From assembly GCA_018896525.1 (NCBI GenBank), contig JAHIMR010000048.1, positions 124,001 through 188,000 of the forward strand: DNA of 64,000 nucleotides, read 5' to 3'. A program made the position numbers and the translations under genes. The notes below the pieces were generated by a model, which did not search any database, was not told the origin of the DNA, and was given only the letters and a program-made list of their open reading frames with translations. The stretch's first letter is position 1. Every line of letters starts with the position of its first letter. This document shows positions 44,081-47,678 of the stretch, one piece after another. This stretch comes from Actinomycetota bacterium. GTDB taxonomy: Bacteria; Actinomycetota; Geothermincolia; Fen-727; Anoxymicrobiaceae.

Positions 44081-44320
44081 ATGGAAATCGATGTGAAGGT
44101 GGCGACTATACTGCTGAAGAAGGCCGAGCCCCCTCTTCGCTCTACCCGGTTCAGCCTGTCGGTCGAGGACGGCACCGACGTCGAAGGGCTGATAGGCACG
44201 CTGGGGGTGCCGCCCCGGCTTGTCGGCTCGGTCACCGTGAACAAACGGCGCAGCCCCCGTGACCGCGTGCTGGCTCACGGTGACCTGGTGGCCATAATCC
44301 CCGCTATCTCCGGTGGTTGA
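44081..44320 (+). CDS. MoaD/ThiS-family ubiquitin-like sulfur carrier
   Basis: ...LVGSVTVNKRRSPRDRVLAHGDLVAIIPAISGG with C-terminal GG. Confidence 0.82.
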   Translation: MEIDVKVATILLKKAEPPLRSTRFSLSVEDGTDVEGLIGTLGVPPRLVGSVTVNKRRSPRDRVLAHGDLVAIIPAISGG

Positions 44321-44321
44321 C

Positions 44322-45185
44322 ATGAAACGCGACCTCGCCCGTGCGATAAGGGATGCGGCGCGCAACCGCCGGGAGGGAGATACCGACTACCTTTGCCTGT
44401 CTCTGAACGCGGTGCGAGAACTGGCCTCCGAGTTCAACTCTTCGACCGCCGCGGTTTCCGTTCACGCACTCGAGAACGGGTTCGTTCCCGAGCGGTACCT
44501 GAAGAACGCCGGAACCATCGGGCTCGAGGGCCAGGCGGCCCTGCTCGGATCAACCGTCCTGGTCGTCGGCGCCGGGGGCATCGGTGGTCACGTGGTGGAG
44601 TTGCTTGCCCGCCTGGGGGTCGGACGGATAGACGTTGCCGACCCGGATGTCTTCGACGAGACCAACCTGAACCGCCAGGTGTTCGCGGGCGAGGACGTCC
44701 TCGGCTTGCCCAAGGTTGACGTGGCCAGGGACCGAGTCCGGGCCATCAACAGCGACGTCAGCATTTCCCCCATCCGCCTGGAGGTAGGCCGGGACAACAT
44801 CGCCGAACTGCTCGAGGGCAAAGACGTGGTTATCGACGCGCTTGATAACCTCGACGACCGTCTCATGCTCCAGGAGGCTTGCCGACTTCACGGTGTGGTC
44901 ATGGTCCATGGGGCCATCGCCGGCAGTTGCCTCCAGGCGACTACCGTGTTCCCGGGTGACCCCGGGCTTACCGTGTTCACCCCCGCCTCGGGTGGGGAGG
45001 GGAAGGCCCGGGGCATCGAGGTCGAAATGGGTGCCCCCGCCGCCACCCCTGCCATCTCGGCCGCGGTCCAGGTCCAGGAGGTATTGAACGTGCTCCTGGG
45101 TCGCACGCCCGCGTTGCGCGGCAGAATGCTCTACATCGACCTCGAGGACTGGACCGTCGAGTTCTTCGACCTGGACGAGCACTGA
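44322..45185 (+). CDS. ThiF/MoeB/HesA-family E1-like adenylyltransferase
   Basis: VLVVGAGGIGGHVVELLARLGVGRIDVADPDVFDETNLNRQVFAGEDVLGLPKVDVARDR. Confidence 0.9.
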   Translation: MKRDLARAIRDAARNRREGDTDYLCLSLNAVRELASEFNSSTAAVSVHALENGFVPERYLKNAGTIGLEGQAALLGSTVLVVGAGGIGGHVVELLARLGVGRIDVADPDVFDETNLNRQVFAGEDVLGLPKVDVARDRVRAINSDVSISPIRLEVGRDNIAELLEGKDVVIDALDNLDDRLMLQEACRLHGVVMVHGAIAGSCLQATTVFPGDPGLTVFTPASGGEGKARGIEVEMGAPAATPAISAAVQVQEVLNVLLGRTPALRGRMLYIDLEDWTVEFFDLDEH

Positions 45186-45334: not shown

Positions 45335-45381
45335 ACGACAGAGGTTAACAGGGAGCACCGACACGTTTTTTATGCCGGCGA

Positions 45382-45410
45382 TTGACTTATTGCTTGTACT
45401 GCTATACTAT
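45382..45410 (+). promoter_or_regulatory. Candidate promoter for the IscB-associated RNA
   Basis: TTGACT (45382-45387) - N17 - TACTAT (45405-45410). Confidence 0.45.
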
Positions 45411-45424
45411 TGGCTTGTACTGCT

Positions 45425-45720
45425 GTTCTTCTCGAAGGAGGGTGGCCGTCAACCACCCCTCTCTGAAGGGAAGGGGCTTGGAGAAAACTCCGGGCCCCGG
45501 TTGACTAGGAGGCTTGGAACCTCGAAGGAGGTGACATGCAGAAGTTATCGGAGAGAAACACATACACACCCCGGGATGCATCCCAAGTTCCGGGCTCTGT
45601 GGCGCCTGGTCTAAACAGCCCTTCAGGGGTACGGGGCAGTGACACGCGCTTCAAAACCTCCGATAACAACTCCGAAGGGACCCTGACCGGGAGAGGACGC
45701 CCGGGGCGGAACTCGAGAGT
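45425..45720 (+). ncRNA. HEARO / omega RNA-like structured RNA upstream of iscB
   Basis: Hairpins gagggtgg-ccgtcaa-ccaccc..ctc, ggag-aaaa-ctcc, gagg-cttggaa-cctc, ggga-tgca-tccc, and a perfect 10-bp long-range helix GTTATCGGAG (45544-45553) / CTCCGATAAC (45658-45667), immediately 5' of the IscB PLMP domain. Confidence 0.75.
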
Positions 45721-47002
45721 ATCCGCCGTTTACGTCCTCAACATGAGAGGGGAGCCTCTGATGCCGACGGCTCCGAGGAAGGCGAGAGTCCTTCTCGTGA
45801 GCGGGCGGGCCAAGGTTGCGAAGAGAACCCCCTTCACCGTTCAACTCCTTTATCCGACCGGAGAAACGAAGCAACCCGTCTCTCTGGGCGTTGACGCGGG
45901 ATACTCGAAAGTTGGGCTGTCCGCGGTTGTTCCGGGAGGCCAGGAGCTCTTCTCTGCCGAGGTCGAGCTCCGAAGCGACATCGTTAAGCTCATCTCCTGC
46001 CGGCGGACTTACAGACGGGCCCGCAGGGGCCGGAAAACCTGGCACCGGAAGCCCCGGTTCCTCAACCGGAAAAAACCGGAGGGCTGGCTCGCCCCCTCGA
46101 TTCAGCACAAGCAGGGCAGCCACCTGAAGCTCGTAAGGGAAGTCAAGAAGATTCTTCCGGTGTCAAAGATAACGGTCGAGGTCGCCTCCTTCGACATCCA
46201 GAAGCTTCAGAACCCGGATGTTTCCGGGAAGGGGTATCAGGAAGGCCCGCGGAAAGACTTCGAAAACGTCCGGGAGTACGTCCTTTTCCGGGACAATCAC
46301 ACCTGCCGAAACTGCAAAGGGAAGTCCGGCGACCCGGTGCTTCAGGTTCATCATGTCGTTTCGAGGCAAACCGGCGGGAACAGGCCGGAAAACCTTATGA
46401 CCGTCTGCAAAACGTGCCACGACTCGCACAACCGGAGGGAGACCCCGATAACCGCGAAACCCGTGAAGGGGTTCCGTCCGGAAGCTTTCATGAACACCGT
46501 CCGTCGGAGGTTGGTCTCTCTTCTCGGGGAAGAGAACGTCTGTCCGGTCTCGGCGACCTTCGGATATATCACCAAGTCAAACAGAATCGCGCTCTCCCTC
46601 CCGAAGTCCCACGCGAACGACGCATTCGTAATCGCCGGGGGAAACGGGGAAGAACGGGCTTCGGACACCTTCTTTTCAAAGCAGGTCAGGAGCAACAATC
46701 GGAAGCTTTTCAAGGGCGTTCGAAGCCACCTGAAGAACACCGCTCCGAGGTTTGTCCAGGGGTTTCAGAGGTACGACAAGGTTCTTTACGCCCCGGACGG
46801 AAACGGTCCGGAAGAGTGCTTCATCTTCGGCAGGAGGTCTTCCGGGTACTTCGACGTTCGGAAAGTGGACGGAACGAAGGTCCACTCTTCGGCTGCCGCC
46901 GATGGCTTGGTTCTGCTTGAATCGGCGAAAACACTCTTGACGGAAAGGAGGACGGCGGCTTTCCTCCCCCACCTGACGGAAGGGGTCTCCAGCCGCCTTT
47001 AG
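45536..47002 (+). CDS. iscB: IscB RNA-guided HNH/RuvC endonuclease (OMEGA nuclease); conserved protein begins at about 45728
   Basis: PLMP domain VYVLNMRGEPLMPTAPRKARVLLVSGRAKV; RuvC-I LGVDAGYSKVGLSAV; Arg-rich bridge RRTYRRARRGRKTWHRKPRFLNRKKPEGWLAPS; RuvC-II KITVEVASFDIQKL; HNH CRNCKGKSGDPVLQVHHVVSRQTGGNRPENLMTVCKTCHDSHN; RuvC-III KSHANDAFVIAGG. Confidence 0.93.
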   Translation: MQKLSERNTYTPRDASQVPGSVAPGLNSPSGVRGSDTRFKTSDNNSEGTLTGRGRPGRNSRVSAVYVLNMRGEPLMPTAPRKARVLLVSGRAKVAKRTPFTVQLLYPTGETKQPVSLGVDAGYSKVGLSAVVPGGQELFSAEVELRSDIVKLISCRRTYRRARRGRKTWHRKPRFLNRKKPEGWLAPSIQHKQGSHLKLVREVKKILPVSKITVEVASFDIQKLQNPDVSGKGYQEGPRKDFENVREYVLFRDNHTCRNCKGKSGDPVLQVHHVVSRQTGGNRPENLMTVCKTCHDSHNRRETPITAKPVKGFRPEAFMNTVRRRLVSLLGEENVCPVSATFGYITKSNRIALSLPKSHANDAFVIAGGNGEERASDTFFSKQVRSNNRKLFKGVRSHLKNTAPRFVQGFQRYDKVLYAPDGNGPEECFIFGRRSSGYFDVRKVDGTKVHSSAAADGLVLLESAKTLLTERRTAAFLPHLTEGVSSRL

Positions 47003-47003
47003 G

Positions 47004-47678
47004 ATGAAGCTCAGCAACGTCCTGAAATCCCGGCCCGGGCTCAACACCGCAATCGGAGTCGCCTTCGCGGTCGTCGCGGGACTGCTGCTGCTGGGCTACG
47101 TTTCGCAGTTGTTCGGCGGCGAGCGTGGCGGCCCGTTGCTGGACATCCCGGTGGCCACACATGACATAGGTATCGGCAACATCATCGATGGTTCGATGAT
47201 GACCACCAGGAAGATCGCCAGCGAGTACCTGGTCCCGGGAACGGTCCGGGAACGCGATGGTATAGAAGGGTCCAGGGCGCTCAGGTTCATCGGCAAAGGT
47301 GAGCCTTTCACCTCCTCGTCTGTTTCCGGCGGCGATGGTCCGGGCACACTTGCCTCACGGATACCCCCTTCCATGAGGGCGTACTCACTGAGGCTGAGCC
47401 CGCTCGCCGGCTCCAGTGGTGACATCCGCCCGGGGGACCACGTGGACGTCCTTGCCACCGTCGGCGGCGACCCGCCCAGTACGGCGACAATACTCACCAA
47501 CAGGCTTATCCTGAGCGTGAGTTCCATGGCACCCGACGGGGAAGTGGATGCGTCACGGGGCAATGCGTCGGCCATAACACTGCTGGTGTCCCCTGATGAG
47601 GCGGAGCGGCTTGCCCGGGCGGAGTTCGAAGGCGAGATATCCATCTCCCTGTGCCCGCTGGCCGGTGTTGACCAATAA
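47004..47678 (+). CDS. CpaB/SAF-domain pilus assembly-type protein
   Basis: N-terminal TM, IPVATHDIGIGNIIDGSMMTTRKIASEYLVPGTV (SAF), IRPGDHVDVLATV, ITLLVSPDEAERLARAEFEG. Confidence 0.75.
   Translation: MKLSNVLKSRPGLNTAIGVAFAVVAGLLLLGYVSQLFGGERGGPLLDIPVATHDIGIGNIIDGSMMTTRKIASEYLVPGTVRERDGIEGSRALRFIGKGEPFTSSSVSGGDGPGTLASRIPPSMRAYSLRLSPLAGSSGDIRPGDHVDVLATVGGDPPSTATILTNRLILSVSSMAPDGEVDASRGNASAITLLVSPDEAERLARAEFEGEISISLCPLAGVDQ

Follow-up and report, generated by a model that had tools for sequence, protein, structure and literature searches.

A candidate dual-function omega RNA that may serve as the translated leader of an IscB gene

Where does the translation of an IscB nuclease begin when its frame already runs open through the RNA that guides it and no start codon stands at the usual place? 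This question is raised by an iscB locus in a stretch of 64,000 nucleotides (nt) of contig JAHIMR010000048.1 (hereafter the window) from an Actinomycetota bacterium of the family Anoxymicrobiaceae (genome G000); the locus and the host genes next to it all lie on the forward (+) strand. The locus is a member of the known IscB/HEARO family, and what appears to be new is its arrangement, with the predicted start of the gene inside the guide RNA. Omega RNAs are currently treated as non-coding, and a literature search found no report of such a start, the founding papers (HEARO discovery 2009, ISC 2016, OMEGA 2021) being outside its reach. We consider it likely that the locus represents an ISC-type IscB clade in which the omega RNA doubles as the translated 5' leader of iscB and hands ribosomes over to the host gene.

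The omega RNA and the start of iscB

The Rfam model of the HEARO RNA (RF02033) matched positions 45448-45687 over its full length (model positions 1-211) with 124.4 bits and an E-value of 2.6e-25, above the gathering cut-off of 83 bits, and this was the sole Rfam match in the window. The covariance-model search proposed in a preliminary description of this DNA thus returned the expected RNA, and the 10-bp long-range helix recognised there (GTTATCGGAG at 45544-45553 with CTCCGATAAC at 45658-45667) is exact in the sequence and forms part of the HEARO alignment. The same description had placed the RNA directly 5' of the gene; it does lie at the 5' side, but not solely upstream, as the open frame begins within it. 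The flanks of the copies diverge exactly at 45448, and the approximately 20 nt to the left of this point (45428-45447) are predicted, by analogy with known IscB, to serve as the guide.

The IscB frame is open from 45509 and holds an ATG at 45536-45538, inside the omega RNA and preceded by AAGGAGGTGAC, from which translation would start; the Shine-Dalgarno (SD) sequence and the string ATG-CAG-(A/C)AG-TTA are conserved in the clade. A second SD sequence, AAGGAGGTGA (45525-45534), falls within a predicted hairpin (ACCTC-GAAG-GAGGT) and is identical in the other IscB copy of the genome, on contig C101. At the usual position of the iscB start the window copy has no ATG, GTG or TTG (its codons are tcg aga gta), and the only start found between the omega RNA and the protein core is the internal Met of NMRGEPLMP (ATG 45743). 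An open reading frame (ORF) that starts downstream of the omega RNA, which is a usual feature of IscB and not one that defines the family, is not found here. The canonical start has been lost in about seven lineages including the window copy (TCG), the others having TCG, ACG, CCG or CTG. Translated from the predicted start, iscB would span 45536-47002 and encode 488 aa, with the core beginning at about 45725 and with an in-frame extension of 63 codons (45536-45724) encoded by the 3' half of the omega RNA and a linker.

The openness of this frame was followed in a set of loci, 80 of them taken from species genomes and nine from viral contigs, whose HEARO RNAs were located. The clade comprises 29 IscB loci, and the frame test covered the 150 nt that precede the canonical start; two control groups carry the same kind of RNA. 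In the clade, stops in frames 0/1/2 numbered 2/85/87 and the IscB frame was free of stops in 28 of the 29 loci, while the control groups gave 20/32/23 and 37/40/40. That the HEARO sequence alone forbids stops was considered and rejected, because the control groups are not open. When the openness label was mapped on a tree of 60 IscB proteins, it required five changes, compared with 20.2 when the label was shuffled (none of 500 shuffles reached the observed value). The clade includes members of Actinomycetota, Bacillota, Bacteroidota, Ignavibacteriota, Caldisericota, Methanobacteriota, Thermoplasmatota, Diapherotrites and WOR-3, and in two loci (L019 and L022) insertions of 36 and 78 nt leave the frame intact.

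An ATG placed 1-23 nt past the SD strand, with an ORF that reaches IscB, was present in 30 of 32 SD-type omega RNAs and in none of 25 GCC-type ones (p 3.5e-14). Twenty-six of these 30 leaders are fused to IscB and four end at or just before the iscB start (L030, L034, L036 and L096, with the junctions ATGTTAG, GTGTTAG, TAGGAGGATTCATG and TAA + 11 nt, respectively). From the position of these stops, a translated leader is more probable than a protein domain.

The SD-like strand is itself a structural part of the RNA. In the window GGAGG (45508-45512) pairs with CTCC (45670-45673) in the pseudoknot, and it is also paired in the minimum-energy fold. Within the clade this pseudoknot joins a GGAGG-like 5' strand to a CUCC-like 3' partner, and outside the clade the strand is of the GCC type with UUGGC. 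The variants GGAG, GGGG, GGGA and GAGG are matched by CTCC, CCCC, TCCC and CCTC, respectively, and full pairing (4/4) was observed in 47 of 48 SD-type loci, against a mean of 34 and a maximum of 40 in shuffled pairings. As the SD-like strand covaries with its anti-SD partner, folding of the guide and translation of the leader look mutually exclusive.

Insertion ahead of a host start codon

The gene to the right of the element (47004-47678) encodes a CpaB-like pilus protein (NCBIfam TIGR03177, 115 bits), and its start, ATGA, adjoins the element as a target site resembling a target-adjacent motif (TAM). The SD sequence of cpaB, AAGGAGG (45435-45441), is found in the left flank. The copy on contig C101 likewise has a GGAGG SD sequence at its left, and the gene at its right encodes a Rossmann-type FAD/NAD-binding protein. 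In both copies ATGAAGC lies directly to the right and is the start of the next gene, and joining the flanks brings SD and ATG to within 5-6 nt (6 nt for cpaB). In genomes of the same family cpaB occurs without IscB, with a ThiF-like ORF upstream in most cases where the flank is long enough; these element-free orthologues begin ATGAAGCT, and the start at locus L008 reads ATGAAGCTCAACAAC. From the joined flanks together with the element-free relatives, the aligned sequences place the element between the SD and the start codon of cpaB.

A sigma-70-like promoter (TTGACT-17-TACTAT, 45382-45410) was detected by pattern scan, with one found against 0.2 expected. It is probably the promoter of cpaB, now located upstream of the omega RNA. 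A TGCTTGNANTGCT-like repeat is found upstream of cpaB in family relatives and also just left of the element. Moreover, a TGCTTGTACTGCT-like repeat occurs upstream of cpaB in most same-family genomes (window 45380-45430, L008-L014), and is probably a promoter or an operator.

In 17 of 24 loci an ORF of 80 aa or more begins at the ATGA that adjoins the element on the right; of the ATGA sites in the same loci, 17.6% begin such an ORF (p 1.5e-8). Judged by names read off their N-terminal sequences, the host proteins starting at this site include EF-Ts, DNA ligase, GuaB and a nucleotidyltransferase, and in many loci the stop codon of iscB is the TGA of the host ATGA. The TAM of the window IscB is predicted to be ATGA(A/G). 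The 2009 HEARO work reportedly described integration beside ATGA or GTGA, and the target motif may therefore already be known.

Other HEARO copies in 24 genomes were kept as a hold-out, the idea having been formed without them. Among these, eight leaders are fused to IscB (L182-L185, L188, L190, L194 and L195), two are coupled (L200 and L201), and six ATGA overlaps with host ORFs of at least 168 aa were found. Elements that have lost iscB and persist as solo copies retain an open frame from the omega RNA to ATGA in three lineages; these include L005 of the sister species G001 (114 codons) and L187 and L189 of genome G069. The archaeal metagenome-assembled genome G075 (the genome of L061, about 1.7 Mb) contains 59 HEARO copies, many of them solo and often directly before start codons (loci L202-L241). 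The right ends were not located for about half of the copies in G075; of the 20 solo copies scored, 10 have a frame that stays open right up to the TGA of the target ATGA, against an approximate 1.6 expected had the same mutations been placed randomly.

A proposed mechanism and its alternatives

The conserved frame, the covarying SD strand, the missing canonical start, the ATGA target and the open frames of the solo elements are read directly from the sequences; translation from AUG 45536, the switch between folding and translation and the re-initiation at cpaB are what we infer from them. One transcript, probably starting from the cpaB promoter outside the left end, would carry the guide (supplied by the host 5' untranslated region, UTR), the omega scaffold, iscB and cpaB. 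Folding of the omega RNA would lock the SD sequence in the pseudoknot (GGAG/CUCC) and make the RNA a guide scaffold; if the RNA is unfolded or unbound, ribosomes could start at AUG 45536, read the 3' half of the omega RNA and produce an IscB whose N-terminal tail of about 63 residues is disordered and not under selection. Ribosomes would then stop 1 nt before the host start, or within ATGA in many relatives, and re-initiate there. By inserting directly 5' of a start codon, the element would in this manner capture a promoter and a guide with the host gene still translated, and IscB, on binding the omega RNA, would cover the SD sequence and so limit its own synthesis. To the broader proposition we give about even chances, namely that in a large IscB clade of bacteria and archaea the omega RNA has this dual function, that insertion passes ribosomes through iscB or a solo remnant into the host gene, and that the solo copies (dozens in one archaeon) are translated leaders of host genes.

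A conventional IscB would start downstream of the omega RNA, at a non-standard codon near 45725 or at ATG 45743, and the open frame would be a by-product of constraint on the RNA. Published practice agrees with this, as N-terminal extensions are trimmed and the omega RNA ends about 2 bp before the protein (PMC13180657), and so does the fact that about half of the clade keeps TTG or ATG at the canonical position. We nevertheless judge it unlikely, since the control clades that bear HEARO are not open in the IscB frame, the insertions in L019 and L022 preserve that frame, the coupled leaders end at or just before the iscB start, and a start at ATG 45743 would, in the predicted structure, delete the first beta strand of the core (residues 65-68). 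If instead the extension were a functional N-terminal domain with selected amino acids, for example in RNA binding, the recurrent start MQKLxxRNTYTPTDAxQV would be explained. The mismatches, however, are spread evenly over codon positions 1/2/3 in the extension (1059/978/1064), unlike in the core (5605/3872/11749), and the AlphaFold2 model, of moderate confidence as a whole (mean predicted local distance difference test score, pLDDT, 62.8), rates residues 1-62 at a pLDDT of about 30 and shows structure only from residue 65. The extension peptides are similar because their nucleotides are constrained as omega RNA. By the codon-position counts the extension shows no amino-acid selection, its frame being conserved and its peptide not. 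We rejected a conserved peptide on these counts and the low pLDDT, and consider a functional N-terminal domain most improbable.

Decay of the window copy, with the start codon lost and the gene not expressed, is very unlikely as well. The canonical start is indeed TCG and the sister species has only copies without iscB, but the catalytic residues and the frame are intact, the same loss of start occurs in other lineages with an intact IscB, and comparison with the copy on C101 gave a nonsynonymous rate (dN) of 0.27 and a synonymous rate (dS) of 2.0 (dN/dS about 0.13). The core is under purifying selection, consistent with a functional protein, and decay was rejected on the dN/dS and the residues.

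Some observations weigh against a translated omega leader. The retention of TTG or ATG at the canonical position, already mentioned, is one of them, and members that retain it possibly have dual starts. The extension is not conserved as a protein and could hence be tolerated rather than needed. The window copy uses its own TAG one base before the ATG and has no ATGA overlap. No species-level empty site was found, as the sister genome lacks cpaB and the comparison was made with genomes of the same family. Finally, the copies of G075 share ancestry, which makes the 1.6 expected above an approximation, and an intact leader showed no significant association with an intact host ORF (p 0.17).

The translated omega leader proposed here can be compared with systems already described. 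The locus resembles the IscB/HEARO-ORF nucleases OgeuIscB, MG35-1 and OrufIscB in the PLMP motif, the split RuvC, the HNH domain, the 5' HEARO RNA and the guide in the left flank. It differs from them in that an SD sequence and a predicted start lie inside the omega RNA, the pseudoknot is of the SD and not the GCC type, a canonical start is lacking and the ATGA target is at a gene start. Likewise, it matches the whole HEARO model RF02033 (124 bits) and departs from its GCC-type consensus by the GGAGG/CUCC strand and by an ORF running through the 3' half. In TnpB systems of IS200/IS605 elements the overlap of the omega RNA is with the 3' end of the ORF. A single transcript is both message and guide there and would be so here, but in the window the overlap is at the 5' end of the ORF and the start signals are inside the guide fold. 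Leaders or short upstream ORFs that sequester an SD sequence also share the hidden SD, a leader ORF coupled to the next gene and the ATGA overlap (PMC6728339), whereas here the leader is the guide RNA of a nuclease on a mobile element. The activity of the IscB family has been published (PMC9755519, PMC13180657), the omega RNA has been placed in the 5' UTR (PMC9755519), longer IscB N-termini have been trimmed to a downstream start (PMC13180657), and ATGA overlaps are described to couple translation in bacteria and archaea (PMC6728339).

If the proposal is true, annotated IscB starts are wrong, constructs that separate the guide from IscB lose a built-in control, and with a single RNA the cell has to decide between guide and message. 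The ATGA rule would also account for the little harm done in front of essential genes (tsf, guaB, cpaB) by an element that has neither promoter nor transposase of its own. The solo copies of G075 constitute a natural test set.

The IscB protein, the element and its surroundings

The preliminary description had recognised an intact IscB with an uninterrupted frame, PLMP, a split RuvC and an HNH domain with CxxC...CxxC. All these features are present, the ORF is open to 47002, and the covariance match, the equivalog model and the conserved catalytic residues support this identification. The protein matched the guided_IscB equivalog model (NCBIfam NF040563) with 338 bits against a cut-off of 175, and the Pfam models RRXRR (207.7 bits) and HNH (31 bits). 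The putative catalytic residues of RuvC are D120 of RuvC-I (45893-45895), aligned to the GIDPG motif of IscB, E215 of RuvC-II (46178-46180) and, in the HxxD of RuvC-III, H359 and D362 (46610-46621); the HNH domain extends over 46304-46450, with H273 at 46352. PLMP corresponds to residues 74-77 and the zinc ribbon to C257/C260/C291/C294 (ORF numbering). The PLMP, RuvC, HNH histidine and zinc-ribbon residues are invariant in 20 relatives and can be aligned with OgeuIscB-type chains whose structures are solved, so that no loss of RuvC or HNH catalytic residues was encountered.

The two copies of G000, whose proteins are 70% identical, have common sequence from 45448 to 47003 and unlike flanks outside, and the right end was also compared with those of L016 and L005. 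The locus had earlier been drawn at 45425-47002; the locus itself stands, and its borders shift, as 45425-45447 is host flank, that is, the predicted guide, and the last base is 47003. A right-end hairpin (46954-46997; stem 46954-46960/46991-46997) overlaps the 3' end of iscB and folds in both copies. Between these copies identity reaches about 97-100% in part of the omega RNA and about 90-97% over the final 180 nt or so, with 52-73% in the middle, a pattern that recombination or conversion of the ends may have produced. Among 60 genomes searched, HEARO was found beyond G000 only in the sister species G001, which has two degenerate or solo copies with the same ends; the better preserved one (L005) keeps a complete omega RNA and right end without iscB.

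Defined ends, site-specific insertion and several copies are as in ISC and IS200/IS605 transposons, and an adjacent Y1 TnpA, also typical of these, was not found. This agrees with the earlier statement that no TnpA is adjacent: the nearest Y1-type gene in the window is RAYT-like (2152-2883) and about 43 kb away. It is one of four Y1 genes of the genome, all RAYT-like, and the search that gave these four found no classical IS200-type TnpA in the genome. Mobilisation of the element in trans is plausible, given that the copy on C101 and the two of the sister species have the same ends. Upstream of the insertion lies a ThiF/MoeB-like host gene (44313-45185; Pfam ThiF, 168.6 bits).

Several other sequences related to these elements were observed. 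A repeat of about 130 bp ending GCAGATGATA occurs in G000 on contigs C102, C90 and C18 and in at least four other places (L109, L111 and L113 among them). Its hairpin is similar to the IscB element's right end, and it is possibly a family of miniature inverted-repeat transposable elements or repetitive extragenic palindromes served by the same kind of transposase. Locus L006 of G001 (contig C85) is a relic omega RNA, without the first stem strand and iscB, between two ORF fragments, and possibly represents insertion into a gene. When viral contigs were scanned for SD + ATGCAGNAGTTA, 33 loci came up, of which only L137 has an omega RNA and IscB, the rest being chance matches; on this contig, classed as viral, an SD-type omega RNA continues in frame into IscB, which lacks a canonical start. 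In Desulfallas (L084) two HEARO RNAs (1475-1684 and 2747-2966) share a strand and are separated by about 1 kb, the upstream one scoring 157 bits.
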